From IMG/VR virus record IMGVR_UViG_3300031569_001202, positions 1 through 26,423 of that record: a DNA stretch of 26,423 nt, one strand, 5' to 3'. Below the pieces are notes generated by a model. The model ran no database searches and was not told the origin of the DNA. It saw only the letters and a list, made by a program, of their open reading frames with translations. Shown piece after piece: positions 4,122 to 25,319 of this stretch. Made by a program: the position numbers and the translations under genes. How positions within the stretch are numbered: the stretch's first letter is position 1; every line of letters begins with the position of its first letter. This DNA is from a virus.

Positions 4122-4133
4122 GAAGAAACAAAG

Positions 4134-4430
4134 ATGGCAAAAGAATTAAATGAAGAGACAGGATTTAAAGTAAGTCTTAAAACTTTAGGAGGTATAGGAT
4201 TTGTGATGGTAACTGTAATAGGAATGTGGTTCTCATTACAAGCTGATATTGAGGAAGCAAAAGAGCTTCCAGAACCATTACCACCAGACGTAACTAGAAT
4301 GGAATTTGATATGAAAGATCAATTAATTAGACAAACTATTATGACAACACAAGAAGATGTTGAAGAAATAAAAGATGAACTTAATACTATCGAAGATAAA
4401 TTAGATAAAATAATTGAAAAAGGGCGATAA
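4134..4430 (+). CDS. Small membrane-anchored coiled-coil protein
   Basis: The protein has 98 residues. A short, partly charged N-terminus precedes one hydrophobic segment (about residues 18-35, LGGIGFVMVTVIGMWFSL). A proline-rich linker (LPEPLPPD) follows, then a long acidic heptad-like helix to the end (EDVEEIKDELNTIEDKLDKIIEKG). The single TM plus coiled coil would fit a holin, a spanin-like protein or an envelope anchor, but nothing decides between these. The gene follows the barrel gene by 12 nt and ends 1 nt before the preferred start of the thioredoxin-like gene, so it is part of the same envelope block. Confidence 0.6.
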   Translation: MAKELNEETGFKVSLKTLGGIGFVMVTVIGMWFSLQADIEEAKELPEPLPPDVTRMEFDMKDQLIRQTIMTTQEDVEEIKDELNTIEDKLDKIIEKGR

Positions 4431-4431
4431 T

Positions 4432-4758
4432 ATGAAAAAAATCTTAACAATTGTATTTTTATTTATATCAATTAGTATTATATCTCAAATACAAGTTATT
4501 CAATTTAATGCAAATTGGAATGATGCCAATGGAGTTAAATGGTTAGGTAAATTAACAGATGCTAAAATTAGTGAAGTTTGTATAGTAACAAATAAAGCAG
4601 CACAAGCAAAATATAAAATAGTAGTGGTACCGACAATTATTGTTCTTAATCATGGAGAAGAAGTGAAAAGATATCAAGCAAACATTATGATGAAGATGGA
4701 AGCAAAATTGGAAGACATACAAAATATAATTGATGAAACAGTAATGGAGTCATTCTAA
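4432..4758 (+). CDS. Exported thioredoxin-fold protein lacking the CxxC active site
   Basis: I chose the ATG at 4432 because it follows the upstream stop directly and leaves a clean signal-like N-terminus; an in-frame ATG at 4414 would add MKKGDN. The protein has 108 residues. Residues 1-18 are a Lys-Lys plus hydrophobic leader. The thioredoxin core follows: a strand ending FNANW where thioredoxin has FWAxWC, a central helix, then VVVPTIIVLNHGEEVKRYQA with the conserved cis-proline (Pro67), and a C-terminal helix. The residues after Trp29 are N-D-A-N instead of C-x-x-C, so disulfide exchange by the usual mechanism is ruled out. It is probably a binding or scaffold member of the fold, placed outside the cytoplasm. 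The stop overlaps the nuclease start (TAATG). Confidence 0.72.
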   Translation: MKKILTIVFLFISISIISQIQVIQFNANWNDANGVKWLGKLTDAKISEVCIVTNKAAQAKYKIVVVPTIIVLNHGEEVKRYQANIMMKMEAKLEDIQNIIDETVMESF

Positions 4759-5207
4759 TGTATGAATATAAATGTAAAGTAAATAAAGTAATCGACGGCG
4801 ATACAGTTGACGTCGATATTGATTTAGGATTTGGTGTTGTACTTACCGATGAGAGAGTAAGGATAATGGGTATAGATACTCCAGAGTCTAGAACTAGAGA
4901 TAAAGTTGAAAAGATATTTGGATTAGCATCTAAAAAAAGATTAAAAGAGCTTTTGTCTGAACACTGTGTTCTCAAAACAGAGATCAATAAAAATGGTGAA
5001 GATATGAAAGGTAAGTTTGGAAGAGTGTTAGGTGACTTTGTTACTACAGATGGGAAAATGATTACCGACATACTTATTGAAGAAGGACATGCAGTTCCTT
5101 ACCACGGGCAATCAAAAGATGATGTGCAAGGAGCACATATGTTAAATAGGGCAAAACTATTATCTGAGGGCATAGTATTGCAGTCAAACATAGATAAAGT
5201 ATTATAA
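4758..5207 (+). CDS. Staphylococcal-nuclease-like (thermonuclease) endonuclease
   Basis: This 149-residue SNase-fold protein has no signal peptide. VIDGDTVDVDI (residues 11-21) is the family's N-terminal signature. VRIMGIDTPES carries Arg35, the metal-binding Asp40/Thr41 and the general-base-position Glu43. KFGRVLG carries Arg89, equivalent to the second catalytic arginine. DILIEEGHAVPY is the usual C-terminal strand and helix. All catalytic positions are kept, so it should cleave nucleic acid in a Ca2+-dependent way. Homologues occur in marine T4-like phages. Possible roles are host DNA breakdown or nucleotide recycling; cytoplasmic action is implied by the missing signal. It lies directly behind an exported thioredoxin-like protein, but that may be only positional. 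Confidence 0.88.
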   Translation: MYEYKCKVNKVIDGDTVDVDIDLGFGVVLTDERVRIMGIDTPESRTRDKVEKIFGLASKKRLKELLSEHCVLKTEINKNGEDMKGKFGRVLGDFVTTDGKMITDILIEEGHAVPYHGQSKDDVQGAHMLNRAKLLSEGIVLQSNIDKVL

Positions 5208-5210
5208 GTT

Positions 5211-5220
5211 AATATTTATA
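5211..5220 (+). promoter_or_regulatory. Candidate non-early promoter element (AATATTTATA)
   Basis: The 30-nt gap before the 329-residue gene contains AATATTTATATAAAA. The same ten bases, AATATTTATA, occur again before the glycosyltransferase at 23865. Neither gap contains the TT(A/T)G-N20-TAnnTTT early-type motif. This may be a late promoter core for a phage sigma factor, but two examples in very A+T-rich DNA are weak support. Confidence 0.25.
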
Positions 5221-5237
5221 TAAAACATGGAAATACA

Positions 5238-6227
5238 ATGAAAAGATCACAGTTAAATAAAATAATAAGAGAAGAGTATCAAAGAATACTTTTTGAAGCA
5301 TTTGGAGATCCGATTGCTAGCAAGTTACAAAGATTAGGTGGCGTAGATACACGTTATAAAAAGTTCTGGAATGCAGCAGCTAATACATATGATATAGCAT
5401 GGGACAAATTACCAAAAGGGTCTTTTAGGAAAATTACTAATACAGCAGAAGCTAAAAAAGGAATGACATTTTTTGTTATTACATCCAGAAAACCAAATCC
5501 ATTTAAGACAGATAATTACGGTTTTGATGCAGAACTGCAACCAGGAGTATTGTCAGTGACAGTAGATGGTAAGCCACAATACTTTCAACAAAGTGGTGGA
5601 ACTAGATATACTAGAGGAATAGACAAGATAGGATCAAAACTTTCTGCTCGTGCAACACAAACAGGAGATCCAATTGGAAGAGGACAAAGAGGTATATTTA
5701 TGTTCAAAAAGCTCATTGAAGTTGCGGACATAATGTATAATTTTGATCTAGAAGCATTTAGAGGTGGAACAACAGCATTAAAAGCTGATAGAGTAGAGTT
5801 GCAATCCGGAGCAGATAAGTTTTCAGATCCTAAGGCATGGAAAAAAGCAAATATAGCTAGATACCAAAAGATTTTAGCTGATAGAGTAGGTAGTAGAGGC
5901 GCTGTTGATAGAATGGTTGCTGAGATAATTAAAATAGGCAATGAAGCTGTAACAAAAGGAATGGAACTTCCTAAGCTTGGAAAATATGATGAGATTGTAA
6001 CAGATATTAATGGAAATGAAGTTACATTGAATACTATAACAAGACGTATGAATGATACAATAAGAAACTATTCCAGATTTATTCAATCAGAAAATGAAAT
6101 GGCTAGTCACTTAAAAGATTATCCAGAATATGATATGGAAGATTCTTTTCAAAAAGGCAATCAACGAAGTATAGCGTTAGAGATAAAACAAGAATTAGCA
6201 GCTTTTAAATCTGGTAGAATTAGATAA
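5238..6227 (+). CDS. Unknown 329-aa protein, possible internal virion protein with capsid-targeting N-terminus
   Basis: I do not recognise the family. The N-terminus MKRSQLNKIIREEYQRILFE-A is a short amphipathic helix followed by L-F-E|A. That fits the (L/I)-x-E|(A/G/S) site cut by T4-type prohead protease gp21. T4 internal proteins such as the IPs and Alt carry a comparable short helical targeting peptide removed after a Glu. If the analogy holds, mature protein would begin at Ala21, be packed in the head and enter the host with the DNA. The remainder is soluble and lysine-rich, with no membrane segment or catalytic motif that I can name; the C-terminal third looks helical. It is separated from the nuclease gene by 30 nt holding a possible promoter and is followed closely by the next two unknown genes. 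Confidence 0.72.
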   Translation: MKRSQLNKIIREEYQRILFEAFGDPIASKLQRLGGVDTRYKKFWNAAANTYDIAWDKLPKGSFRKITNTAEAKKGMTFFVITSRKPNPFKTDNYGFDAELQPGVLSVTVDGKPQYFQQSGGTRYTRGIDKIGSKLSARATQTGDPIGRGQRGIFMFKKLIEVADIMYNFDLEAFRGGTTALKADRVELQSGADKFSDPKAWKKANIARYQKILADRVGSRGAVDRMVAEIIKIGNEAVTKGMELPKLGKYDEIVTDINGNEVTLNTITRRMNDTIRNYSRFIQSENEMASHLKDYPEYDMEDSFQKGNQRSIALEIKQELAAFKSGRIR

Positions 6228-6242
6228 AACAAGGAAAAAATT

Positions 6243-6473
6243 ATGGCAACAATGAATGCAAGATTAGATACAGATAACGTGCAAACGTTCTACAAAGCAA
6301 TCGATTCGTATATCGAAGCAGTATCAAAAACAGGAAATCAAGATGCATTGTCTGGATTATATGACATGTTCATGGATAATGATTATGCAAGTGAAATTCA
6401 AGATATGATGGAATCTAAAAAATCTAATAAGCCTTTACTAAAAGAATTTAAAAGAATCGGCGGAACAAGATAA
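6243..6473 (+). CDS. Small helical protein of unknown function
   Basis: This 76-residue acidic protein is mostly helical by composition, with a basic C-terminal tail (KPLLKEFKRIGGTR). It begins 15 nt after the previous stop, preceded by an A-rich AAGGAAAAAATT stretch that can serve as a ribosome-binding region. No family is recognised. Co-transcription with the putative internal virion protein upstream makes a structural or packaging role possible, but that is inference only. Confidence 0.6.
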   Translation: MATMNARLDTDNVQTFYKAIDSYIEAVSKTGNQDALSGLYDMFMDNDYASEIQDMMESKKSNKPLLKEFKRIGGTR

Positions 6474-7826: not shown

Positions 7827-7838
7827 ATCCTTATATTT
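7808..7838 (+). promoter_or_regulatory. Early-type promoter P1, upstream of DNA ligase
   Basis: TTTG at 7808-7811, exactly 20 nt, then TATATTT at 7832-7838, matching the Bacteroidetes primary-sigma -33/-7 pattern. The spacer carries GGAATCGTGAG and TTTATCCTTAT, both repeated at 19007-19037. The predicted transcription start lies about 16 nt before the ligase ATG. Confidence 0.75.
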
Positions 7839-9638: not shown

Positions 9639-9669
9639 TTAGGATTTTAAATTTTTTTACTTTATATTT
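9639..9669 (+). promoter_or_regulatory. Early-type promoter P3, upstream of the QueD/QueE unit
   Basis: TTAG at 9639-9642, 20 nt, TATATTT at 9663-9669. The spacer differs from P1 and P2 (TTTTTTTAC instead of TTTATCC) but the spacing is identical. The ATG at 9688 follows 18 nt after the -7 element. The unit may extend to 12105, since no other promoter of this type is visible before P4. Confidence 0.68.
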
Positions 9670-9687
9670 AATACAAAATAAGCATAT

Positions 9688-9996
9688 ATGAAAAACAGTT
9701 ACAAGTTTAAAGACGTTGATATAATATTTGATTTCAAAAAAATATCAATGCATGATCAAGAATATTTAAGAACAATGTTTTATGAAACGATATTAGATCG
9801 TTCAGTGAAGCAGTCTGGTTATACTTTTAATGAGTATTATCCTAGAGCTAGTACATTCTCTATATTTAATGATGAGGATTCAATGGCTAGTTACATGAGT
9901 GAATTTAATTCAAATTATGGTAATACTGCATCTCATTTATTAGAAGGAAGAAAATATTATTTAGCATGGACATATAAAGAAAGAAGAAATGGGTAA
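9688..9996 (+). CDS. Hypothetical 102-aa protein preceding QueD
   Basis: This 102-residue soluble protein is rich in Tyr, Asp and Ser, with no recognised domain or signal. Its last 8 bases overlap the start of the QueD gene, so it is translationally coupled to the deazaguanine genes. That suggests, but does not show, a shared role. Function unknown. Confidence 0.62.
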   Translation: MKNSYKFKDVDIIFDFKKISMHDQEYLRTMFYETILDRSVKQSGYTFNEYYPRASTFSIFNDEDSMASYMSEFNSNYGNTASHLLEGRKYYLAWTYKERRNG

Positions 9997-10456
9997 ATTT
10001 AAATCGAGTAAAGTATTTGATGGGTTCAGTACAGTATTCCGTCAATGGAAAGCAAAAGATACACATTGTAGATTTTTGCATGGATATGGTATATCTTTTA
10101 AAGTATATTTTGAAGGTGAGTTAGATGATAGAAATTGGGTATGGGATTTCGGTGGCATGAAAAGAGCTAACACTAAAATTAATGACATGTCTCCTAAGAC
10201 TTGGATGGATTATATGTTTGATCATACTGTAGTAATAGCAGAAGATGATCCAGAAATGGACAATTTTCTTAAACTACATACTGCAGGGATAATACAATTA
10301 AGAATAATTCCGGCTACGGGCGCAGAGAAATTTTCAGAATACATTTACAATAAGTTAAATGATTTTGTTCATACCGAAACTAAAGGTAGAGTAAAGGTTA
10401 CTAAAGTTAAGTTTATGGAACATGGCAAAAATGCAGCATACTATGAAGAGGATTGA
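9989..10456 (+). CDS. queD: QueD-like 6-carboxy-5,6,7,8-tetrahydropterin synthase
   Basis: The 155-residue protein belongs to the PTPS/QueD family. Cys27 in HCRFLHGYG is at the catalytic position. WVWDFGGMK (50-58) is the signature following the first strands. FDHT (77-80) carries the catalytic Asp78-His79 pair, and Glu144 in EHGKNAAYY is the pterin-anchoring Glu. It converts 7,8-dihydroneopterin triphosphate, made by FolE, to 6-carboxytetrahydropterin, the QueE substrate. Of the usual three zinc histidines only His31 is obvious: FSTVFRQ replaces FxAAHR, and HGY replaces HGH. This looks like a phage-type variant rather than decay, because everything else is kept. It overlaps its upstream neighbour and the QueE frame. 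Confidence 0.87.
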   Translation: MGKFKSSKVFDGFSTVFRQWKAKDTHCRFLHGYGISFKVYFEGELDDRNWVWDFGGMKRANTKINDMSPKTWMDYMFDHTVVIAEDDPEMDNFLKLHTAGIIQLRIIPATGAEKFSEYIYNKLNDFVHTETKGRVKVTKVKFMEHGKNAAYYEED

Positions 10457-11213
10457 AGATTATAATAAAGTATTACCTGTATTAGAAGTATATAGATGTG
10501 TACAATCAGAAGGTAGTAGATTTGGAAGACCTACTATTGCAGTTAGAACAACAGGATGTACACATAGATGTTACTTCGGCGATGGTGGTTGGTGCGATTC
10601 TTGGTATACTAGTATTCACCCGGAAAAAGGTACTTTTTGTTTTAATGATATTATTAAAATATATGATGACAATCCCCATGTGAAAGAAATGATGCTTACA
10701 GGTGGGTCACCTACAATGCATCCTGCTTTAGTTAATGAAATAACACATTTTGCAAAAGAGAGAAATATTTTAATTACAATTGAAACAGAAGGCTCTCATT
10801 TTCTTGAAACAGATTATCCCCTGGACCTAATTAGTCTTAGTCCTAAATTTAGTAATAGTGTGCCTGTAGTTGGAGCTGTCACGCCCAATGGAGCTATAGC
10901 AGATGAACGTATGATTAAAGTACATAATAGACTTAGATTAAATAAAGAGGCTATTGCAAAAACAATTGCATATCATAAAGATTATCATTTTAAGCCTGTA
11001 TGGGATGGTACAGATGAAAATTTAGAAGAAATAGAAACTTTTAGAGTGGAAATGAATATCCCAAAAGATAAAACATTTATAATGCCGGCCGGAGATACTA
11101 GAGAAACATTAGTAAAAATGTATCCATTAGTATTTGAATTATGTGCTGAAAAAGGATATAACATGACAGGTAGAGACCATATTATAGCATATGATACAGA
11201 ACGTGGAGTATGA
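10422..11213 (+). CDS. queE: QueE-like radical SAM 7-carboxy-7-deazaguanine synthase
   Basis: It rearranges 6-carboxytetrahydropterin to 7-carboxy-7-deazaguanine (CDG), the committed step to preQ0. LEVYRCVQSEGSRFGRPTIAVR is the QueE N-terminal signature. GCTHRCYFGDGGWCDSWY holds the [4Fe-4S] cysteines, and EMMLTGGSPTMHP is the SAM-binding GGEP-like motif; TIETEGSH and DLISLSPKF are further family blocks. The cluster spacing is Cx3Cx7C rather than the usual Cx3Cx2C, with five extra residues before the WCD. Length 263 from the first ATG. In-frame ATGs at 10431 and 10443 give shorter forms, and 10443 (MKRIEDYNK) is quite possible because it overlaps QueD least. The stop overlaps the next start (ATGA). 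Confidence 0.87.
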   Translation: MAKMQHTMKRIEDYNKVLPVLEVYRCVQSEGSRFGRPTIAVRTTGCTHRCYFGDGGWCDSWYTSIHPEKGTFCFNDIIKIYDDNPHVKEMMLTGGSPTMHPALVNEITHFAKERNILITIETEGSHFLETDYPLDLISLSPKFSNSVPVVGAVTPNGAIADERMIKVHNRLRLNKEAIAKTIAYHKDYHFKPVWDGTDENLEEIETFRVEMNIPKDKTFIMPAGDTRETLVKMYPLVFELCAEKGYNMTGRDHIIAYDTERGV

Positions 11214-11344
11214 TAGAAGAAGCATTGGAAATATTATTGGAAATAGAAGAGAATGTAGGAACATGTTGTGCAATAACGATGGATCCGGAAGAAGTTGAAG
11301 ATTTGATTTACAAATTACGAACAATTATAGAAAGTTTAAAATAA
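11210..11344 (+). CDS. 44-aa acidic small protein
   Basis: The ATG overlaps the QueE stop (ATGA), and the TAA overlaps the next ATG (TAATG). The peptide is acidic and helical, with a Cys-Cys pair near its middle (VGTCCAITMDPEEVEDLI). Perfect stop/start coupling on both sides and phage-like codon use support it as a real gene despite its size. Function unknown. Confidence 0.6.
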   Translation: MIEEALEILLEIEENVGTCCAITMDPEEVEDLIYKLRTIIESLK

Positions 11345-11496
11345 TGAGCAATCCTGAAGATTTATTGTACAGTGCTGAAGAATATGGTAAACGGCATGAA
11401 ATGTTTACAGAAATAGATAAATTAAAATTAATCCATCCAAAATTGGATCGAGAAGAATTATATGAAAAAGCATATAATAATATAATGAAAACATAA
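11344..11496 (+). CDS. 50-aa small protein
   Basis: The start overlaps the stop of the 44-aa gene (TAATG). The 50-residue peptide is charged and helical (MSNPEDLLYSAEEYGKR...), with a pattern such as HPKLDREELYEKAYNNI that resembles a small helix-turn-helix-like or helical-hairpin unit. It ends 12 nt before the GroES-like gene. No family recognised. Confidence 0.6.
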   Translation: MSNPEDLLYSAEEYGKRHEMFTEIDKLKLIHPKLDREELYEKAYNNIMKT

Positions 11497-11508
11497 AAAG
11501 AAATAGAT

Positions 11509-11805
11509 ATGAACATGAAACCAATAGGAGATTTAATTCTCGTAGAAGAACAAGAAAAGACAAAGAAAACTGTATCTGGTATTATTATTCCAGATGGTGT
11601 TGAAGGTGATTATATATACGCAAAAGTAATATCCACCGGTAGAGGATTATTTACTCAAACCGGAAATAGGATTCCAATGACAGTACATGTAGGCGACACA
11701 GTTGTATTACATAAAAATCAATCCGGAGCAAATAAAAAAATTAAATTAGAAGATAAAGAATATTTACTATTGCATGAATCAGAAATTGTAATGGTATCAG
11801 TATAA
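11509..11805 (+). CDS. GroES/Cpn10-like co-chaperonin (T4 gp31 functional analogue)
   Basis: This 98-residue protein has the Cpn10 plan: KPIGDLILVEEQ (4-15), a mobile loop around residues 17-28 (TKKTVSGIIIP), AKVISTGRG (38-46), VHVGDTVVLHK (59-69) and EDKEYLLLHESEIVMV (81-96). T4 gp31 replaces host GroES to fold the capsid protein. This protein is closer to true GroES in sequence than gp31 is. No GroEL gene is in the window, so it would use the host chaperonin. It sits among nucleotide-metabolism genes, 12 nt behind the 50-aa gene. Confidence 0.88.
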   Translation: MNMKPIGDLILVEEQEKTKKTVSGIIIPDGVEGDYIYAKVISTGRGLFTQTGNRIPMTVHVGDTVVLHKNQSGANKKIKLEDKEYLLLHESEIVMVSV

Positions 11806-11835
11806 CAAATAACTCACGATAAAGAAAGGTTAATT

Positions 11836-12105
11836 ATGGAAACAATTAATATAATTATAATGACAGTTAGTGCATGTGCAGGTATAGGATTACTTGTGGG
11901 TGCATATTCAAAATTATCAAGACAAATACAGGATGAGACAAATTACTTAAATACAGAAATATCAAATGTAAAAAGTGATTTAGAGTTAGACTTGCAAGAG
12001 TTACATCGACAGATAGATAGGCGAGCAGATCAACTACTAGCTAAGATTGAGCTTAAAGCAGATAAAAAAGTGACAGTAAAAAAAACAACAAAGAAAAATA
12101 AATAA
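11836..12105 (+). CDS. Small single-TM coiled-coil protein with basic tail
   Basis: This 89-residue protein has a hydrophobic segment at about residues 5-24 (NIIIMTVSACAGIGLLVGAY). A long heptad-like helix follows (about 27-75), then a Lys/Thr-rich tail (KKVTVKKTTKKNK). A GAAAGG sits about 9 nt before the ATG. The layout, short outside N-terminus, one TM and a cytoplasmic coiled coil, resembles phage holin-like or membrane-remodelling accessory proteins, but there is no diagnostic motif. Confidence 0.6.
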   Translation: METINIIIMTVSACAGIGLLVGAYSKLSRQIQDETNYLNTEISNVKSDLELDLQELHRQIDRRADQLLAKIELKADKKVTVKKTTKKNK

Positions 12106-12122
12106 AAATAATGTGTGAGTTA

Positions 12123-12153
12123 TTTGTTTATTTGAAAAAAAATTCTTATATTT
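12123..12153 (+). promoter_or_regulatory. Early-type promoter P4, upstream of FolE
   Basis: TTTG at 12123-12126, 20 nt, TATATTT at 12147-12153. The 16-mer CTTATATTTAAGTATG (12145-12160) ends in the FolE start codon and is repeated exactly at 22484-22499. The start codon lies only 4 nt after the -7 element, close to the expected transcription start. Confidence 0.68.
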
Positions 12154-12157
12154 AAGT

Positions 12158-12832
12158 ATGACAAAAGAAAAAAGTATTGAACTAGTAAGAGAAGGTTTTG
12201 CAAATGGTATAGTACCAGGCGGACCTTTAGATGACTTTCAAAAGAATGAAATGATTCAAAAAGCAGCAAAGGCATTTGGTGAATTTTTAGATGCATTAGA
12301 ATGTGATTGGCGAAATGATCCGAATTCAGATAATACTCCTCGTAGAGTAGCAAAGGCATATGTAAATGATTTATGGTCAGGTAGATATAATGCTGCTCCA
12401 GATATTACCGGATTTCCGTCTGATGGATATGATGGTATAGTGTTTGAAGGCGGCATTCCATTGACAAGTATGTGTTCACATCATCATCAGACTATAATGG
12501 GAAAAGTGCATGTTGCTTATATTCCGGGCGAAGATAGTAGAGTTATAGGATTAAGTAAATTAAATAGATTGGTAGAACATTTTGCTAGAAGAGGCGCAAT
12601 ACAAGAACAATTGACGGTTGCTATACATAATTCAATAGATACTATTATTAATGACAATAATGGTGTAGCTGTAATGATAGAAGCAACTCATAATTGTGTG
12701 CAATGTAGAGGTGTAAAGCATGGTGGTGCATCAATGAAGACAAGTAAATTAACTGGTGCATTTAAAAATGACCCAGCAACTAGAAACGAATATTATGAAT
12801 TCATCAGAGGTTATGGAAATACTAATACCTGA
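12158..12832 (+). CDS. folE: GTP cyclohydrolase I (FolE)
   Basis: The 224-residue protein converts GTP to 7,8-dihydroneopterin triphosphate. Family blocks are present: TPRRVAKAYVNDLWSG (60-75), PLTSMCSHHHQTIMGKVHVAYIP (101-123), VIGLSKLNRLVEHFARR (129-145), QEQLT and EATHNCVQCRG. The zinc ligands Cys106, His109 and Cys180 match those of the E. coli enzyme. In this genome the product most likely feeds QueD and QueE rather than folate synthesis. The N-terminal ATG is the one formed at the end of promoter P4, so the mRNA may be leaderless. The 3' end overlaps the HPRT gene by 38 nt. Confidence 0.93.
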   Translation: MTKEKSIELVREGFANGIVPGGPLDDFQKNEMIQKAAKAFGEFLDALECDWRNDPNSDNTPRRVAKAYVNDLWSGRYNAAPDITGFPSDGYDGIVFEGGIPLTSMCSHHHQTIMGKVHVAYIPGEDSRVIGLSKLNRLVEHFARRGAIQEQLTVAIHNSIDTIINDNNGVAVMIEATHNCVQCRGVKHGGASMKTSKLTGAFKNDPATRNEYYEFIRGYGNTNT

Positions 12833-13319
12833 ATATAAAATAGAACGAAGAGTTAGAGCAATGGCTCATCGTATATCTGAGGAGCATAAAGCTAGTGGTA
12901 ATGATTTGCCGCCAGTGATGTTATGTGTATTGAATGGAGCATTTATGTTTTTTACGGATCTGGTAAAGGATATGGGCATCGATATACAAGTTGATTTTAT
13001 TAGAGCAAAATCATACCAAGGCAGAGATAACAGTAGTGGCGTTGAGATATTAAAAGATATAGAATTAGATCTTAAAGGTAAACGTGTCTATATTGTTGAA
13101 GATATAATTGATACAGGTGCTACAATGATAGAAATTTTACAATCTGTAAATAATAAAGTAGCATTAGAAGTTAATATAGTAACATTGGTACAACGTAAGG
13201 ATCCAGTTATACCAGTCGAACATTATTGTTTTGAGATCGGCGATGAGTGGATAGTAGGATATGGGTTAGATGATCATTCATTGAAAAGAAATTATAGAAA
13301 CATATATAAAATAAATTAA
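12795..13319 (+). CDS. hpt: Hypoxanthine/guanine phosphoribosyltransferase
   Basis: It transfers phosphoribose from PRPP to hypoxanthine or guanine to give IMP or GMP. I chose the ATG at 12795 because MNSSEVMEILIPEYKI aligns with the start of bacterial Hpt; the frame extends to a GTG at 12756, and ATG 12813, just after CAGAGG, is an alternative. The protein has 174 residues. LCVLNGAFMFFTDL (43-56) is the first PRPP loop region, VDFIRAKSYQG the flexible loop, and VYIVEDIIDTGATM (98-111) the PRPP-binding signature with both acidic residues. GDEWIVGYGLDD near the end binds the purine. It lies inside the FolE 3' end and is followed by a coupled small gene. A role in recovering guanine released by DpdA is inferred, not shown. 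Confidence 0.9.
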   Translation: MNSSEVMEILIPEYKIERRVRAMAHRISEEHKASGNDLPPVMLCVLNGAFMFFTDLVKDMGIDIQVDFIRAKSYQGRDNSSGVEILKDIELDLKGKRVYIVEDIIDTGATMIEILQSVNNKVALEVNIVTLVQRKDPVIPVEHYCFEIGDEWIVGYGLDDHSLKRNYRNIYKIN

Positions 13320-13474
13320 TGCAACAACCAGACGCAAAAAAACATCAAATAGTAAGTTTCATTAAATCAATAATAAGAATATTAGGATATTGTTTTCTGC
13401 CATATAATTTGGTAGTCTCAGCATTTATCCTTATATTAAGTGAAGTAGTAGGAATAATAGAAGAATTAGTATGA
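13319..13474 (+). CDS. 51-aa membrane peptide
   Basis: The ATG overlaps the HPRT stop (TAATG) and the TGA overlaps the SET-domain gene start (ATGATG). The peptide has a basic N-terminal 20 residues, a hydrophobic segment (about 21-46, ILGYCFLPYNLVVSAFILIL then SEVVGI) and an acidic end (EELV). Perfect coupling at both ends and a clean single-TM layout support a real gene. Promoter P5 lies inside it (13408-13438), so part of this sequence has two jobs. Function unknown. Confidence 0.62.
   Translation: MQQPDAKKHQIVSFIKSIIRILGYCFLPYNLVVSAFILILSEVVGIIEELV
13408..13438 (+). promoter_or_regulatory. Early-type promoter P5, inside the 51-aa gene, upstream of SET/DNA polymerase
   Basis: TTTG at 13408-13411, 20 nt, TATATTA at 13432-13438 (one mismatch to TAnnTTT), with TTTATCCTTAT at 13424-13434 identical to P1, P2 and P7. 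AATTTGG precedes the spacer as in P1. CTGCCA/TGGTAG forms a small inverted repeat over the -33 element. The agreement at spacing, spacer and both boxes is too close to be an accident of coding. Confidence 0.6.
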
Positions 13475-13779
13475 TGTATAAACCATTACCAGATCAAGTA
13501 ACTATTAATAGCTCCGGAATTGAAGGATTAGGTTTATTTGCTAGAACAGATATAGTAGCTTTGACAGAATTAGGAATTACTCATATACAAGACGATAGAT
13601 TTCAGTTAGGGTGGATTCGTACTCCATTAGGTGGATTTATTAATCATTCAGAAACTCCTAATTGTGAATTAAAACAAATAGATGATTGTAAATATTTAGT
13701 TGTTATAGACAATATTATGCAAGAAAAAGAATTAACCTTAAAATATACAACATATAATGTATCAAGCAGTAGCATATAA
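13471..13779 (+). CDS. Small SET-domain protein (putative lysine methyltransferase)
   Basis: The 102-residue protein has a minimal SET core. INSSGIEGLGLFART (12-26) is the N-terminal SxxxGxGLFA motif. TPLGGFINHSETPNCEL (51-67) contains the NHSxxPN cofactor/substrate motif. The C-terminal KELTLKYTTY (86-95) is the ELxxxY motif with the catalytic Tyr. It would use S-adenosylmethionine to methylate a lysine of a protein; the target is unknown. Lack of pre- and post-SET domains is normal for bacterial and phage forms. It overlaps the polymerase gene by 23 nt, so polymerase translation is probably coupled to it. The second codon is also ATG (13474). Confidence 0.83.
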   Translation: MMYKPLPDQVTINSSGIEGLGLFARTDIVALTELGITHIQDDRFQLGWIRTPLGGFINHSETPNCELKQIDDCKYLVVIDNIMQEKELTLKYTTYNVSSSSI

Positions 13780-16237
13780 TAAAAATAGCAATACAGTACA
13801 TGTATGGGATGATCATAAAGGACATCAAAAGATAAAGTATAAACCTTATGCATATAAAAAATCATCATATGGTGATAAGATAGCATTAGATGGGCAGAGA
13901 GTTGAAAAGGTATATAATCCGGAGCAAGGAATAGATGGATTATATGAAGCAGATTTAAACCCGGAGATGCGTACTCTTATTGATATGTACACAGATTCAG
14001 ATGAAGCATCGATAGGACATAAGACATTGTTTATTGATATCGAAGTAGATATATCAACTGGATTTCCAACTCCAGAAGAAGCTCAGAATCCAGTAACATC
14101 AATTGCAATTTATGATCAATTAGGCGATCAAAGATGTGTATGGATATTAGATCCGGATGGTGTAGTTAATAATGTAAATAAAAAAGGATATTCAGTTACT
14201 TCATGTCATGATGAAGGTGCATTATTAAATAAATTTTTATTCAAATATTTAGAAATACAACCTACTATTATTACAGGATGGAATATAGATTTCTTTGACA
14301 TTCCATATCTTTATAATCGTATGAAACAAATTATCGGAGAAAAGTCGGCTAGATCATTATCTCCAATTAATGACGTTATATGGCTTAAACATAGAAATAG
14401 ATATCGTATATCAGGAGTATCATGTTTAGATTATATGGCATTGTATAAGAATTTTACATATTCTCAGGAATCAAGTTATTCATTGGAAGCTATCTCTCAA
14501 AAAGAGTTAGGTAAAGGAAAGATGAAATATGAAGGTTCATTAGATGATTTAATGAGAAATGATATACAAGGATATATAGATTATAATATGAATGATGTTG
14601 ATCTTGTTTTTGAGATTGATGAGAAAATGAAATTATTAGATCTTGCAAGAAGTATATGTCATAAAGGCCATGTACCATATGAAGACTTTTTATTCCCTAC
14701 TAGATATTTAGATGGCGCTGCGTTAACATATCTAAAACGTATGGAAATAGTTTCTCCTAGTAGACCACCTAGAGTAGAAGGAGAGTTAAATTTATTAGGA
14801 GCATATGTAAAGGCACCTAATCCAGGTAGATATAAATGGGTATATGATCTAGATTTGACGTCATTATATCCTAGTATCATCATGACACTTAATGTATCTC
14901 CGGAAACTAAGGTAACTAAACTAAGTAACTTTGATGGACATAAATATATTAAAAATACCGGAACTCATTATACAGATGAATGGAATGGCTGGGAGACTAG
15001 TGAAGATCTAAGAAAATATTTAGAAGAAAATAAATATTCTATAGCAGCTAACGGTGTTGTATATGATACTCAAATAAAAGGATTTTTACCATCTATATTA
15101 GATAAATGGTTTAATGAGCGTGTTGAATATAAAAATTTACGTAAGAAGTTTGAAAAAGAAGGCAATCATGCTAAAGCAGAATACTTTGATAGAATGCAAT
15201 TAGTGACTAAAATTCTTTTAAATTCATTTTATGGAGTATTAGGTAATCCTAGTTTTAGATTTTTTGATCCGGACAATGCTGTAGCAATTACTAGTACGGG
15301 TCAGCAATTAATTAAATTTACTGCAGATATAGGAAATCAATTTTATACTAAAGAATTAGGACAGAAAAAAGATTATTGTATTTATACAGATACAGATTCA
15401 ACTTTCTTTTCATCATTACCATTAATTGAAAGTCGTCATCCAAATTATGATGTGACAGATGAAAAGTGGATGGCGGATCAGACAATTCAAATAGCAGATG
15501 AGGTACAAGGATTTATTAATAAGTCATATGATATATACGGTAAGAAGTTTCATAATGTAGATAAACATAGATTTGACATTAAACAAGAAAATGTTGCAAA
15601 GGCTGGATTATGGATAGCTAAGAAAAGATATGCTCAATGGATTATTAATATAGAAGGACATACAGTATCTAAATTAGATGTTAAGGGATTAGATGTTGTT
15701 AGATCATCATTTCCACCTTCGTTTAGAAAATTTATGGCAGAAGTATTAGAAGATATGTTAAATGATATTGATAAAGTTACATTAGATGACAAGATATTAA
15801 AGTTTAGAGAACATATGAAAACATTGCCGTTAATAGAAGTTATGTTTCCGGTAGGTGTCAAGAATGTTAAGAAATATGTCAGGCGAGGAGATAAGCCATT
15901 TGGAGTACGAATGAAAGGTACGCCGGTACATGTTAAATCAGCATTAAATTATAATGACATGATAAAACATTTGAAATTAACAAAAACATTTCAAGGTATG
16001 ATTAATGGAGAAAAGATTAAATGGACATATCTCAAACCCAATTCAATGAATTTAGATACAATGGCATTAAAAGGATTTGAAGATCCGCCTGAGATAGAAA
16101 ATTTTGTTCAGACAAATATTAATTATGAAAAAGTATTTGATTCTGCATTTGCAAATAAATTAGGAGACTTTTATAGTGCAATGAATTGGGGAACGATACC
16201 AAAGAATAATAATTTAGGAAAGTTTTTTGCATTTTAA
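13757..16237 (+). CDS. 43: Family B replicative DNA polymerase (T4 gp43-like)
   Basis: The protein has 826 residues with intact 3'-5' exonuclease and polymerase domains. Exo I is FIDIEV (Asp94, Glu96); Exo II is ITGWNIDFFDIPYLYNR (172-188); Exo III is YIDYNMNDVDLV (273-284). Motif A is DLDLTSLYPS (364-373), motif B KILLNSFYGVLGNP (485-498) and motif C YTDTDS (543-548). LGAYVKAPNPGRY precedes motif A as the YxGA-like switch between editing and synthesis. It ends SAMNWGTIPKNNNLGKFFAF; a short C-terminal tail after the thumb normally contacts the sliding clamp. It is shorter than T4 gp43 (898 residues) but has all catalytic residues, no intein and no split. It is translated from within the SET gene, in the P5 unit, and ends just before P6. 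Confidence 0.96.
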   Translation: MYQAVAYNKNSNTVHVWDDHKGHQKIKYKPYAYKKSSYGDKIALDGQRVEKVYNPEQGIDGLYEADLNPEMRTLIDMYTDSDEASIGHKTLFIDIEVDISTGFPTPEEAQNPVTSIAIYDQLGDQRCVWILDPDGVVNNVNKKGYSVTSCHDEGALLNKFLFKYLEIQPTIITGWNIDFFDIPYLYNRMKQIIGEKSARSLSPINDVIWLKHRNRYRISGVSCLDYMALYKNFTYSQESSYSLEAISQKELGKGKMKYEGSLDDLMRNDIQGYIDYNMNDVDLVFEIDEKMKLLDLARSICHKGHVPYEDFLFPTRYLDGAALTYLKRMEIVSPSRPPRVEGELNLLGAYVKAPNPGRYKWVYDLDLTSLYPSIIMTLNVSPETKVTKLSNFDGHKYIKNTGTHYTDEWNGWETSEDLRKYLEENKYSIAANGVVYDTQIKGFLPSILDKWFNERVEYKNLRKKFEKEGNHAKAEYFDRMQLVTKILLNSFYGVLGNPSFRFFDPDNAVAITSTGQQLIKFTADIGNQFYTKELGQKKDYCIYTDTDSTFFSSLPLIESRHPNYDVTDEKWMADQTIQIADEVQGFINKSYDIYGKKFHNVDKHRFDIKQENVAKAGLWIAKKRYAQWIINIEGHTVSKLDVKGLDVVRSSFPPSFRKFMAEVLEDMLNDIDKVTLDDKILKFREHMKTLPLIEVMFPVGVKNVKKYVRRGDKPFGVRMKGTPVHVKSALNYNDMIKHLKLTKTFQGMINGEKIKWTYLKPNSMNLDTMALKGFEDPPEIENFVQTNINYEKVFDSAFANKLGDFYSAMNWGTIPKNNNLGKFFAF

Positions 16238-16268
16238 TTAGGATATGTGTAAAATTATACTTATATTT
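16238..16268 (+). promoter_or_regulatory. Early-type promoter P6, upstream of the glycosyltransferase/DpdA unit
   Basis: TTAG at 16238-16241, overlapping the end of the polymerase gene just after its stop, 20 nt, TATATTT at 16262-16268. The next ATG (16282) follows 13 nt after the -7 element, leaving a leader of only a few bases. Confidence 0.66.
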
Positions 16269-16281
16269 AAAAAAAAGTTAT

Positions 16282-16725
16282 ATGATAGGATTTAGAAAGT
16301 ATTGGTACGGTAAAGAATGTGAAGGTAGATTAACTGATGTTGAAACATTATTTATTAGTGATATAGACGGATTACATTTAGATGAAATTGAATTAATGCC
16401 TCATATCTATTTTTGTTCTGGCGCAATAGAACAATTATTGGAAGAATATGATGACTATGATATTAATTGGGATGTCATAAATAAATTAATTGATGAACAG
16501 AATCTAACTATTAGTTTAGAAGTTGAACCGGACACATTGAGTATGATACCGCCGATGATAAGAATTAAGACACATATTATGTATATGATATCAGATACAG
16601 ATGTTTCATTATTAAAAAAGAATGATAGTATAAAAGTTGTTTATGCTGATTATTCATTATATTGTTCAAGTATACAAAATATGCAACATGTTACACCAGA
16701 CGATTACAAATATGACAGACCTTAA
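16282..16725 (+). CDS. Hypothetical 147-aa protein
   Basis: This acidic, soluble protein has many Asp/Glu and Ile and no signal or recognised domain. It is the first gene of the P6 unit and overlaps the glycosyltransferase start by 14 nt, so it is probably coupled to the glycosyltransferase and DpdA. Function unknown. Confidence 0.66.
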   Translation: MIGFRKYWYGKECEGRLTDVETLFISDIDGLHLDEIELMPHIYFCSGAIEQLLEEYDDYDINWDVINKLIDEQNLTISLEVEPDTLSMIPPMIRIKTHIMYMISDTDVSLLKKNDSIKVVYADYSLYCSSIQNMQHVTPDDYKYDRP

Positions 16726-17773
16726 TACAATTTGGATAGTCGACTTAGAAGCAGTTGAAAGTCGATATACTGGAGAATGGAAACATCATTTTCCTGATCT
16801 TATGAGAATACATGGTTTTGGAACTCATGAGGTTGAAGTTATAGAAGGACCAAGAAATATTCCAGAAGCGACTACGCCTGGTGCATTTTTAAACTTTGGC
16901 GGCACTAACATTTATAAAAGTGCTCAAATGGAAAAAATTAGTAGATTGTTTTGTGATGGAAAGATTAAATCCGGAGATCATTTTATTTATACAGATGCAT
17001 GGAATCCAACTATTATTCAACTTAAGTATATGAGTGAATTATTACAAATACCAATTAAAATTCATGGTCTTTGGCATGCAGGTAATTATGATCCGAATGA
17101 TTTCTTAGGTAGATTGATATCTGATAAATGGGTAAAAACATTTGAAACTTCATTAGCACAGACAATAGATTATAATTGGTTTGCATCTGATGATCATTTG
17201 AAAATGTTTAGAGATAATTTTGGATATGATGATATCGAATGTTTTAGGACAGGTTGGCCTATGGAGTATCTAAGTGTTATGTTTAAACCTAAAGAAAAAG
17301 AAAACATTATATTATTTCCTCATAGAATTGCACCAGAAAAGCAAGTTGAAATATTTAAAGATTTGGCTAAGTCATTACCTAAGGGTTATAAATGTATAGT
17401 ATGTCAAGAAGAAAATCTATCTAAATCAGAATATCATAGTCTATTAGAAAGATCTAAGTTAGTATTCTCCGCGAACCTGCAGGAGACGTTAGGTATTTCA
17501 TGTTATGAGGGGGCTTTGGCAGGTGCGATTCCAATGGTTCCGAATAGATTAAGTTATAAAGAAATGTATTCAGACGATTTTAAATATCCTAGTAAATGGA
17601 CAGAATCATGGGAATTATATATAGAGAATAAAGATAAATTGATATCCACAATTATAGAATATGTAGAACATCATGATCATTATAAGAAACAATTAAAAAA
17701 ATTAACAACAAAGTTACATGAAGAATATTTTTCTTGTAATGGACTAAAAAAGGTATTATTTAATGGAAAATAA
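16712..17773 (+). CDS. GT-B fold (GT4-like) glycosyltransferase next to DpdA
   Basis: The open frame reaches back to 16637, but the first sensible start is ATG 16712, giving IWIVDLEAVESRYTGEWKHH at the N-terminus and 353 residues. TPGAFLNFGGTNIYKSAQ and FIYTDAWNP (91-99) form the acceptor-side domain. IILFPHRIAPEKQVEIFKDLAK starts the nucleotide-sugar domain. ETLGISCYE (258-266) is the Ex7E motif of retaining GT4 enzymes, followed by GAIPMVPN. Its substrate cannot be read from sequence. Position between the DNA polymerase and the DpdA transglycosylase, in one early unit, makes sugar transfer to modified DNA bases an attractive idea, as T4 glucosylates its hydroxymethylcytosine. Its 3' end overlaps DpdA by 11 nt. 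Confidence 0.78.
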   Translation: MTDLNTIWIVDLEAVESRYTGEWKHHFPDLMRIHGFGTHEVEVIEGPRNIPEATTPGAFLNFGGTNIYKSAQMEKISRLFCDGKIKSGDHFIYTDAWNPTIIQLKYMSELLQIPIKIHGLWHAGNYDPNDFLGRLISDKWVKTFETSLAQTIDYNWFASDDHLKMFRDNFGYDDIECFRTGWPMEYLSVMFKPKEKENIILFPHRIAPEKQVEIFKDLAKSLPKGYKCIVCQEENLSKSEYHSLLERSKLVFSANLQETLGISCYEGALAGAIPMVPNRLSYKEMYSDDFKYPSKWTESWELYIENKDKLISTIIEYVEHHDHYKKQLKKLTTKLHEEYFSCNGLKKVLFNGK

Positions 17774-19010
17774 AGAAAAACAAAAAGAATTTATTTACTT
17801 CCCGTCTTTATCAGCAGGAGGATTTGCGTCAGCATTAATCAAAGATGAACAATTAGCATCTGGCACTCCTTGTAGATTTTATGATGATTCATATCCGGAG
17901 AAATTTAGACATAAAAATTTCTTGATAACAGCGGGGCATTATTATAAAAAAATGGATATACGTGAACAGTTTGGTTTAGGTAAAGATTCATTAGTATTTG
18001 GAGATTCTGGAGGATATCAAATTGCAACCGGTGCATTGAAATATAGCAATGACTTGCGAGAAAAGATATTTCATTGGTTAGAGGCCAATTCAGATGTAGC
18101 AGCTAATTTAGATATCCCACCTAAGACAGTTTATGAAAATAAATTTTATGAATGTGCTGATATTAGTTATGATAACTTTGCATATTTTGAAAAACATCAA
18201 TCAGGTAAGACTAAGTTTCTAAATATGTTACAAGGATCGAATCCCCAAGAATATGAATGGTGGTATAATAAATTTAAGCATTTTGAATTTTCTGGATGGG
18301 CTATTGGAGGTCCACAAAAGTTAGTAGATTTTATGTGGGCATTAGCATTAATGTTAAAGAACAGAGAATTTGAAAATCCTAAAATAGAGTATTTGCATTT
18401 ATTAGGCATTTCAAAAATATCTGATTTCTTTATTTTATCAACAATGCAAAAACTATTTAATAGACATTATGGAAATAGAATAATAGTAACTACAGATTCT
18501 AGTTCACCTGGCCAGTATCCAGTATATGGCACTTATCTACATTCACATAACTTTAAGAAGTTATCTTTTAGTGACGTATATATGCCAAAAGGAGCAAAAG
18601 ATGCAGATGGTAATATTGCAAAATTAGATTTACTAGATGCACCAGATGAATTAGTGCCATGTAGTTTAGATTGCCCGGCATGTAAAGACTTTAAATGGGA
18701 TATGTTAAATCAATATAATAAAGAAGCTGTTCCTAGAATGGTGTTACATAATGTACATGTATTTGATCATACAATAAAAGAAGTAAACAAGATTGTTGCA
18801 GCACATAGAGAGGTTGCTCAATATATGGTACCTAATAACTTAGGTGCCGTGTTAAAAAGTATATATGAAATGTTTGAAGATCCTGATAAAGCTATTACAA
18901 CATATGAAAAGTATAAGCAATATTATCAGAAATTCGGAGGACAGAGTATAACAACAATTAATAAAGATATATTTAATCAATTTTTTGAAGAAAAAGAATT
19001 AAAAGATTAG
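17763..19010 (+). CDS. dpdA: DpdA-like DNA-guanine transglycosylase (TGT family)
   Basis: The 415-residue protein is related to tRNA-guanine transglycosylase. LVFGDSGGYQIATG (77-90) contains the DSGG(Y/F)Q motif with Asp81. A second Asp lies in TTDSSSPG (Asp245), at the position of the nucleophile region. CSLDCPACKDF (Cys300, Cys304, Cys307) with a His downstream (His329 or His332) is the zinc site. The TIM-barrel strand GWAIGGPQK (178-186) matches the substrate loop. In phages, this family swaps guanine in DNA for a 7-deazaguanine base; QueD, QueE and FolE in the same window make that role very likely here rather than tRNA modification. It is the last gene of the P6 unit, and P7 overlaps its stop codon. 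Confidence 0.87.
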   Translation: MENKEKQKEFIYFPSLSAGGFASALIKDEQLASGTPCRFYDDSYPEKFRHKNFLITAGHYYKKMDIREQFGLGKDSLVFGDSGGYQIATGALKYSNDLREKIFHWLEANSDVAANLDIPPKTVYENKFYECADISYDNFAYFEKHQSGKTKFLNMLQGSNPQEYEWWYNKFKHFEFSGWAIGGPQKLVDFMWALALMLKNREFENPKIEYLHLLGISKISDFFILSTMQKLFNRHYGNRIIVTTDSSSPGQYPVYGTYLHSHNFKKLSFSDVYMPKGAKDADGNIAKLDLLDAPDELVPCSLDCPACKDFKWDMLNQYNKEAVPRMVLHNVHVFDHTIKEVNKIVAAHREVAQYMVPNNLGAVLKSIYEMFEDPDKAITTYEKYKQYYQKFGGQSITTINKDIFNQFFEEKELKD

Positions 19011-23864: not shown

Positions 23865-25319
23865 ATGGAAAAAATACAGTTACCAAAATTAAAAAAAATC
23901 GATCCGAATAGACCAAAAAAGAAAAAGATATTATTATTATCAGATGATCTACGAGTTCATTCTGGTATTGCGACTATGTCTAAAGAATTTGTAATTCATA
24001 CAGCACATATGTATGATTGGGTTCAATTGGGAGCAGCTGTTAAACACCCAGAAGATGGTAAGGTATTTGATGTATCTGCAGATGTTAACAAAGAAGCAGG
24101 AATAACAGATGCAAATGTTAGAATCTATGCATCATCTGGATATGGCAATGCACAAAAATTGAATCAAATAATAAACATAGAGAGACCAGATGCAATATTA
24201 CATTTTACAGACCCTAGATTTTGGCAGTGGCTATATCAGATAGAACATGAAGTACGTCAACACATTCCAATCATGTATTATAATATTTGGGATGATCTTC
24301 CATACCCATTCTGGAATGAACCTTTTTATGAGTCATGTGATTTAATCATGAACATATCTAGACAGACCCAAAATATAGTAAAAAATGTGTTACGTAAACA
24401 TCCAAAACCAGATTGGGCAGTACAATGGGTTCCCCATGGAGTCAATGAAAATAGATTTTGTACTATTACTCCATCATATGAGCATTATGATGAATATAAT
24501 AAATTTAAAGATGAGTTCAAAGCCAAACATAATGTAGATTTTATTGTGTTCTGGAATAATAGAAATATTAGACGAAAGCAGCCTGGAGATTTGATATTAG
24601 CATTTAAACATTTTTGTGATCAATTGACACCGGAACAAGCATCTAAATGCGCATTATTGATGCATACACAAATATCAGATGATAATGGAACAGATTTAAT
24701 GGCAGTTAAAAATGCTCTTGCTCCTGATTGTAATGTTATATTTAGTACAAATGGAGTAGCACCTAAGATATTAAACTTTTATTATAATATGTCTGCTACT
24801 ACAGTAAATATAGCATCTAATGAAGGATTTGGAATTTCATGGTGTGAATCATTGCATACCGGAACGCCTATAATAAATAACTCAACAGGTGGATTGCAAG
24901 ACGGTTGTAGATTTGAAAATGCAACAGGTGATTGGATAGAATTTGATACACATTTTCCAACTAATCATGATGCAACATATAAAACTACAGGTAAATGGGC
25001 TAAACCAGTATTCCCGACAAATAGATCATTACAAGGATCTCCACAAACACCGTATATATTTGATGATAGAGTTGACTTTAAAGATGTCGGTGATGCAATT
25101 AAATATTGGTATGATATGCCATCTGCAGATAGAGAAGAATGTGGCCAAGCTGGAAGAGAATGGATATTAGGTAATGAATCTAATATGTCAGCAAGACAAA
25201 TGGGAGTACGATTTATTGAGTGTATAGAAACATGCTTAAAAAATTGGACAAAACGTAAAAAGTTTTCATTATATAAAATTAATCAGTTACAAAAAATAGA
25301 AAATCCAGGAATAATATGA
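23865..25319 (+). CDS. GT4-type glycosyltransferase (484 aa)
   Basis: The GT-B fold enzyme has KILLLSDDLRVHSGIATMSKEF (21-42), the N-terminal nucleotide-fold strand and Gly-loop; MYYNIWDDLPYPFWNEPFYESCD (137-159); and VQWVPHGVNENRF (186-198) before the linker. VFWNNRNIRRKQPGDLILAF (228-247) opens the donor domain. EGFGISWCE (320-328) is the Ex7E motif, followed by SLHTGTPIINNSTGGLQD. No signal peptide, so it acts in the cytoplasm. The first 20 residues are Lys/Pro-rich and may be a linker. The acceptor is unknown: phage DNA, virion proteins or host glycans are all possible. An AAGGAAAAT precedes the ATG. Its stop overlaps the next glycosyltransferase start (ATGA). Confidence 0.85.
   Translation: MEKIQLPKLKKIDPNRPKKKKILLLSDDLRVHSGIATMSKEFVIHTAHMYDWVQLGAAVKHPEDGKVFDVSADVNKEAGITDANVRIYASSGYGNAQKLNQIINIERPDAILHFTDPRFWQWLYQIEHEVRQHIPIMYYNIWDDLPYPFWNEPFYESCDLIMNISRQTQNIVKNVLRKHPKPDWAVQWVPHGVNENRFCTITPSYEHYDEYNKFKDEFKAKHNVDFIVFWNNRNIRRKQPGDLILAFKHFCDQLTPEQASKCALLMHTQISDDNGTDLMAVKNALAPDCNVIFSTNGVAPKILNFYYNMSATTVNIASNEGFGISWCESLHTGTPIINNSTGGLQDGCRFENATGDWIEFDTHFPTNHDATYKTTGKWAKPVFPTNRSLQGSPQTPYIFDDRVDFKDVGDAIKYWYDMPSADREECGQAGREWILGNESNMSARQMGVRFIECIETCLKNWTKRKKFSLYKINQLQKIENPGII

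Follow-up and report, generated by a model that had tools for sequence, protein, structure and literature searches.

A 26,423-base stretch of marine phage DNA, the IMG/VR record IMGVR_UViG_3300031569_001202 taken whole (30% G+C; hereafter the window), probably carries the core of a QueC-independent pathway for the 7-deazaguanine hypermodification of DNA. The window is a piece of a larger phage genome and encodes FolE, QueD, QueE and a divergent transglycosylase with the fold of tRNA-guanine transglycosylases (TGTs), together with a glycosyltransferase and a phosphoribosyltransferase; a QueD-like paralog of the family phrog_17812 is found in its relatives. That the phage makes a deazaguanine modification of its DNA is very likely, and there is good reason to think that the inserted base is made independently of QueC. 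More tentatively, with a little less than an even chance of being right, we propose that this base is a glycosylated 7-deazaguanine, derived without QueC from 7-carboxy-7-deazaguanine (CDG), placed in the DNA by an enzyme of a new DpdA family, with a dedicated glycosyltransferase encoded alongside to attach the sugar. The genes concerned are as follows.

9989-10456, plus strand: QueD-like 6-carboxytetrahydropterin synthase (PHROG 2389, E 3e-40; Pfam PTPS, 1.5e-14)
10422-11213, plus strand: QueE-like radical SAM CDG synthase (PHROG 2076, E 2e-48; TIGR03365, 1.1e-14)
12158-12832, plus strand: FolE GTP cyclohydrolase I (Pfam PF01227, 9e-47)
12813-13319, plus strand: HPRT-type purine phosphoribosyltransferase, candidate recycler of displaced guanine (TIGR01203, E 2.9e-42; PDB HGPRTs to 9e-32)
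16706-17773, plus strand: probable group-1 (GT4-like) glycosyltransferase, candidate enzyme for adding a sugar to the modified base (PF00534, E 4e-5, below cut-off; gene association)
17763-19010, plus strand: divergent DpdA-like guanine transglycosylase, putatively acting on DNA (AlphaFold2 (AF2) model and Foldseek; conservation in 162 relatives)

A sequence-only reading of the same DNA had named QueD, QueE, FolE and a DpdA-like transglycosylase; all are present and intact, the last as a TGT-superfamily protein. There is good support for its proposal of a deazaguanine pathway with a transglycosylase as the final enzyme. The start of QueE overlaps QueD (an ATG at 10440 offers an alternative start), and QueE was found in all 24 relatives that have enough upstream sequence. 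In the alignment, the QueD of the window retains the catalytic Cys27, Asp78-His79 and Glu144.

The transglycosylase is only weakly assigned from its single sequence, which matches Pfam TGT at 0.0016, short of the cut-off. Among 51 diverse members of its family, 33 match Pfam TGT, the best at 4.9e-8. An AF2 model calculated from the alignment of these 51 sequences reached a pLDDT of 82.3 and a pTM of 0.85 and was used in place of an earlier, discarded model from 18 close homologs (pLDDT 43.7). The 34 PDB entries that match it best are without exception TGTs, of bacterial, archaeal and eukaryotic origin (best E 1.6e-9); as modeled, the protein has the TGT (β/α)8 fold. Short matches to phosphomannomutase PDB profiles cover only a stretch of the C terminus and were set aside as chance.

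Asp-81, Asp-117, and Asp-245 are invariant in all 162 full-length relatives. By motif, Asp-81 and Asp-245 correspond to the catalytic aspartates of TGT and Asp-117 to the guanine-binding aspartate; we take their counterparts in Zymomonas mobilis TGT to be Asp-102 and Asp-280 (catalytic) and Asp-156 (guanine-binding). The zinc site of three cysteines and one histidine consists of Cys-300, Cys-304, Cys-307, and His-329. In 10 of the 162 relatives, Cys-300 and Cys-304 are jointly replaced by aspartate (CSLDCPAC to DSLGDPAC; window positions 18660-18674), and metal binding in this lineage may differ. Residue 186 is basic (lysine or arginine) in 162/162 relatives and aligns by motif with what is presumably Val-233 at the C7 pocket of TGT, where it could bind the carboxylate of CDG; we treat this as a lead only.

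The protein is not recognizable as DpdA1 of phage 9g (hhalign E 0.34; no tblastn match in the window or its relatives). Comparison with DpdA2 of phage nt-1 is weak by sequence (PHROG 10773, E 0.0012; hhalign E 0.004, probability 8%) and gives a fold match at E 3e-9. No sequence homology was found to the short DpdA of immuto and phiST (gp042), a type which also occurs in CP220/Campylobacter phages and which we take to be DpdA3; phiST gp042 matches by fold only (E 7.5e-4). The transglycosylase thus appears, from sequence comparison, to be a divergent DpdA-like family with DpdA2 as its remote nearest neighbor. Its recognizable isolate relatives are long proteins of large phages (the PA5oct group, Phosso, and GR7B), and ACP17 gp123 and one BUCT-ZZ01 protein are more distant.

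The glycosyltransferase open reading frame (ORF) overlaps the start of the transglycosylase by 11 bp. Its match to PF00534 lies below the gathering score, whereas the homolog from phage X1 lies above it (E 8e-12). In 107 of 109 relatives, the gene immediately preceding the transglycosylase encodes a homolog; the remaining two are Phosso-type contigs. At 1e-5, homologs were found in only 19 of 50,697 phage records, all of which encode a transglycosylase. In Phosso, PA5oct, ACP17, and X1, the homolog (hhalign E 1e-27 to 1e-89) adjoins the transglycosylase or the phrog_17812 gene, and a more distant one lies beside the phrog_17812 gene of BUCT-ZZ01. Compared with PA5oct or Phosso, the glycosyltransferase of the window is 45-47% identical and the transglycosylase about 25%. 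Such a strict linkage of the two genes is an argument for the transglycosylase product as the acceptor of the sugar. Glycosylated queuosines are known from animal tRNA; in the literature searched, we found no report of a glycosylated deazaguanine in DNA.

It is possible, though on balance somewhat doubtful, that the CDG-derived base stays unglycosylated (as 7-carboxy-7-deazaguanine or plain 7-deazaguanine) and that the glycosyltransferase acts elsewhere, for example on a virion protein or the host surface. Such a base would agree with the absence of QueC throughout the related records and with phiST, which has FolE, QueD, QueE, the phrog_17812 protein, and a TGT-fold protein. Because the phiST cluster has no glycosyltransferase homolog, the first part of the pathway can stand alone. 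Against an unglycosylated base speak the overlap of the glycosyltransferase and transglycosylase genes and the position of glycosyltransferase homologs next to the transglycosylase or phrog_17812 gene of unrelated phages that infect Pseudomonas, Acidovorax, Xanthomonas, and Sinorhizobium. The plain carboxy, amido, or preQ0 base that the sequence-only reading had suggested is probably not the end product, given the glycosyltransferase, the phosphoribosyltransferase, and the QueD-like paralog, which that reading had overlooked.

The same reading had correctly noted that QueC is missing from the window and had guessed that another part of the phage genome might encode it, yet none of 53 related records has it: a PF06508 search of the window and 52 related contigs, among them contigs of 169, 160, 141, 130, 110, 101, and 97 kb, detected no QueC. 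A weak match in a 129.6-kb relative is an NadE-like NAD synthetase (L038, positions 937-1710). QueF is absent from all 24 records examined; its sub-threshold match in the window lies inside FolE, and the others look alike. Because FolE, QueD, and QueE are kept without QueC, the pathway apparently stops at CDG or turns elsewhere.

A candidate for such a turn is the phrog_17812 protein, represented by phiST gp040 (115 amino acids), whose homologs were found by searching the proteins of the phiST cluster against the relatives of the window. It is encoded in 12 of 14 mostly long relatives. In freshwater relatives, its gene lies just upstream of the glycosyltransferase-transglycosylase pair, and in three closer marine contigs it lies 31-46 kb from the transglycosylase. 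The family aligns with QueD (hhalign E 3.4e-5, probability 72%) and with the PDB entry for PH0634 (E 0.0045). Its histidines His-15, His-34, and His-36 are invariant and have the spacing of zinc ligands, whereas the catalytic cysteine is missing. The protein is therefore predicted to be a QueD/PTPS T-fold homolog with a zinc triad. The QueD of the window shows the opposite pattern, having kept the cysteine and lost two of the zinc histidines.

The phrog_17812 family occurs in 27 isolate records. Its gene lies within a few kilobases of FolE, QueD, or QueE in MA9V-3, Ahp1, D479, BUCT-ZZ01, Bakedbeans, X1, RHph_I1_18, ACP17, Phosso, PA5oct, and phiST; the annotation around the match in Faecalibacterium phage Roos shows none of the pathway genes. 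The domain forms the C terminus of a longer protein in Chryseobacterium phage MA9V-3 (L121, positions 5452-6333) and Vibrio phage Bakedbeans (L126, positions 4170-5321). Cui and co-workers are said to have predicted, in 2023, a CDG decarboxylase named DpdL, with the deoxynucleosides of CDG and 7-deazaguanine (dCDG and dDG) reportedly present in phages; we make no claim that phrog_17812 is the published DpdL.

The host could also supply QueC, in which case the phage would insert preQ0 or 7-amido-7-deazaguanine as dPreQ0 phages do, and its own FolE, QueD, and QueE would only raise the flux. Bacteroidota hosts often carry QueC, so that host preQ0 could be used. In favor, Hutinet et al. 2019 (PMC6884629) discuss precursor supply by the host for phages without pathway genes and retain Mycobacterium phage Bipper among the preQ0 phages although it lacks QueC. 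However, every related contig lacks QueC while FolE, QueD, and QueE are retained, and the QueD-like paralog is present in almost all QueC-less phages examined, whereas among the QueC-bearing references it appears only as a doubtful match in 9g (E 1e-3). QueC above the cut-off was found in 1 of 12 named phages with phrog_17812, as opposed to 6 of 6 deazaguanine phages without it, a contrast that is suggestive and partly due to selection, as the QueC-bearing phages were partly picked as known full-pathway phages. The single QueC-positive carrier, D479, has a partial QueC match. A host-supplied QueC is therefore possible but unlikely.

That the transglycosylase and its companion genes instead boost or alter queuosine-type modification of tRNA during infection is highly improbable: the fold does resemble tRNA TGTs, and the zinc and catalytic residues are retained, but the sequence is far from cellular TGTs (a search with the family profile, at E values up to 10, finds none of the TGTs in the PDB), DpdA2 of nt-1 is among the viral fold matches, and the neighbors are replication genes (PolB, sliding clamp, and clamp loader), which fits DNA, with no tRNA gene in the 26,423 bases of the window.

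The phosphoribosyltransferase overlaps FolE by 20 bp and is kept in 26 of 29 relatives. It scores 144 bits against TIGR01203, just under the cut-off of 150, and contains the phosphoribosyl pyrophosphate (PRPP) motif VEDIIDTGATM. The deazaguanine clusters of BUCT-ZZ01, immuto, and PA5oct likewise contain phosphoribosyltransferases, and in three other deazaguanine phages (VpKK5, MMDA13, and one Stenotrophomonas phage) FolE itself has an N-terminal phosphoribosyltransferase domain (hhalign E 6.5e-13). These fusions (L218, positions 3998-4900; L219, positions 3989-4876; and L220, positions 3971-4864, respectively) are annotated merely as GTP cyclohydrolase. The enzyme may recycle displaced guanine: base exchange frees one guanine for each base inserted, and the GMP formed from it would refill the GTP pool of FolE. 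Direct synthesis of a deazaguanine nucleotide by HPRT is disfavored because the transglycosylase would be bypassed.

Several observations weigh against the hypermodification pathway as we propose it. A search of the window for phrog_17812 found nothing; because the gene is 31-46 kb away in the marine relatives, it should lie outside the window in this phage. In the QueD of the window, two of the three canonical zinc histidines are replaced (HGH to HGY), a loss common to phiST, phiSM, immuto, ACP17, and BUCT-ZZ01. Of the 19 records with a glycosyltransferase homolog, 4 (PhiXhv-12/15/16 and Ep032) have a 24% match that lies far from the transglycosylase of the same phage. Two more glycosyltransferase-like genes, kept in relatives, lie at the right end of the window (23865-26423) and are likely to have other roles. 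Finally, we infer the whole of the chemistry (base, sugar, and DNA substrate) from the genes.

The sequence-only reading had distributed the pathway over three promoters. Indeed, the QueD-QueE, FolE, and transglycosylase runs each start at their own copy of the motif TTATATTTAA.

9662-9671, plus strand: promoter-like motif TTATATTTAA before the QueD-QueE run (exact match; enrichment upstream of gene starts)
12146-12155, plus strand: promoter-like motif TTATATTTAA before FolE (exact match, 2 bp ahead of the start codon)
16261-16270, plus strand: promoter-like motif TTATATTTAA before the glycosyltransferase-transglycosylase run (exact match, 11 bp ahead of ORF 16282)
16282-16725, plus strand: conserved ORF heading the glycosyltransferase-transglycosylase run (conserved in relatives; no Pfam or PHROG family match)

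With at most one mismatch, the motif occurs within 60 bp upstream of six gene starts (7860, 9688, 12158, 16282, 19077, and 22497), compared with 1.0 expected and a maximum of 4 over 100 simulations. The copies, at 7831, 9662, 12146, 16261, 19030, and 22485, leave gaps of 2-37 bp to the gene start. At up to two mismatches, the overall frequency of TTATATTTAA in the window is not above chance. The motif is probably a phage promoter that gives very short leaders.

A large tailed Bacteroidota phage is indicated by the gene content of the window, which includes PolB, sliding clamp, clamp loader, dUTPase, PhoH, and ligase, and by the isolate QueE sequences closest to its own (Flavobacterium phage immuto, 68% identity; Cellulophaga phage phiST, 61%). 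One related contig is contained in a Crocinitomicaceae metagenome-assembled genome. The gene order is kept in about 90 contigs, where the modification genes have PolB, sliding clamp, dUTPase, and clamp loader as neighbors. The first ORF (1-2991) contains numerous repeats of the type GCTDPxxxNYxxxANxDDGSC and closes with a C-terminal sorting domain for type IX secretion (PF18962, E 2e-12), which is unusual in a phage protein and hints at a Bacteroidota host. A small SET-domain protein (13471-13779; PF00856, E 1e-6) is encoded between HPRT and PolB.

In the proposed hypermodification pathway, FolE would, by family assignment, convert GTP to dihydroneopterin triphosphate, from which QueD would form carboxytetrahydropterin and QueE CDG. 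The phrog_17812 paralog would then act on CDG in place of QueC, probably at the carboxyl group, and, once the phage DNA is replicated, the TGT-fold DpdA would replace guanine in it by the base derived from CDG. The glycosyltransferase encoded upstream would put a sugar on this base, as its strict gene association suggests, while HPRT would return the displaced guanine to GMP and then GTP. The phage DNA would thereby be shielded from host restriction. Phage 7-deazaguanines are known restriction shields, and those reported carry small groups at C7. A conserved module of transglycosylase, glycosyltransferase, and QueD paralog recurs in phages of Bacteroidota, Pseudomonas, Acidovorax, Xanthomonas, and rhizobia, so that common aquatic phages and cultivated jumbo phages are predicted to contain a bulkier DNA base. 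If correct, this base would be to DNA what the glycosylated queuosines are to animal tRNA, and a phage phosphoribosyltransferase would recycle the guanine set free by the exchange. The link between phosphoribosyltransferase and FolE suggests that the cost of replacing many guanines after replication could be met by salvaging the guanine that is expelled.

The pathway resembles the known dPreQ0/dG+ pathway of Escherichia phages 9g and CAjan and Vibrio phage nt-1 (PMC6884629), in which FolE, QueD, and QueE likewise feed a DNA transglycosylase of the TGT superfamily. In contrast to these phages, which use DpdA1 or DpdA2, the phage group of the window has no QueC, Gat-QueC, or QueF. Its transglycosylase cannot be recognized as DpdA1 by sequence and is only remotely DpdA2-like, and the group adds the glycosyltransferase, the QueD-like paralog, and HPRT.

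Closer in composition is the phiST cluster (QueD-QueE-FolE-MazG-gp040-ATPase-gp042), which lacks QueC as the relatives of the window do, shares phrog_17812 with them, and encodes QueD, QueE, and FolE about 60-64% identical to those of the window. It differs in its short TGT-fold protein (259 amino acids; unrelated to that of the window by BLAST), the missing glycosyltransferase homolog, and a phosphoribosyltransferase that lies about 20 kb from the cluster, unlike the HPRT of the window, which overlaps FolE. The immuto cluster resembles the window in its QueD-QueE-phosphoribosyltransferase-FolE-DpdA order and in its 68% identical QueE. However, immuto possesses QueC, QueF, a formyltransferase, and a short DpdA unrelated by BLAST, and it has no phrog_17812 protein.

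The glycosyltransferase-transglycosylase pair is also found in jumbo phages of Pseudomonas and Sinorhizobium. The Pseudomonas jumbo phages PA5oct, Paride, and Callisto, as well as ACP17, X1, and Phosso, each encode a transglycosylase, a homologous glycosyltransferase, phrog_17812, and QueE, mostly adjacent and mostly annotated as hypothetical; the papers examined on Paride and Callisto do not mention deazaguanine. These phages belong to other virus groups, and their transglycosylases are longer (424-549 amino acids) and about 25% identical or less. Whereas the deazaguanine pathway itself is known, the combination is new: a divergent DpdA-like family without QueC, joined by a QueD paralog, a dedicated glycosyltransferase, and a phosphoribosyltransferase.

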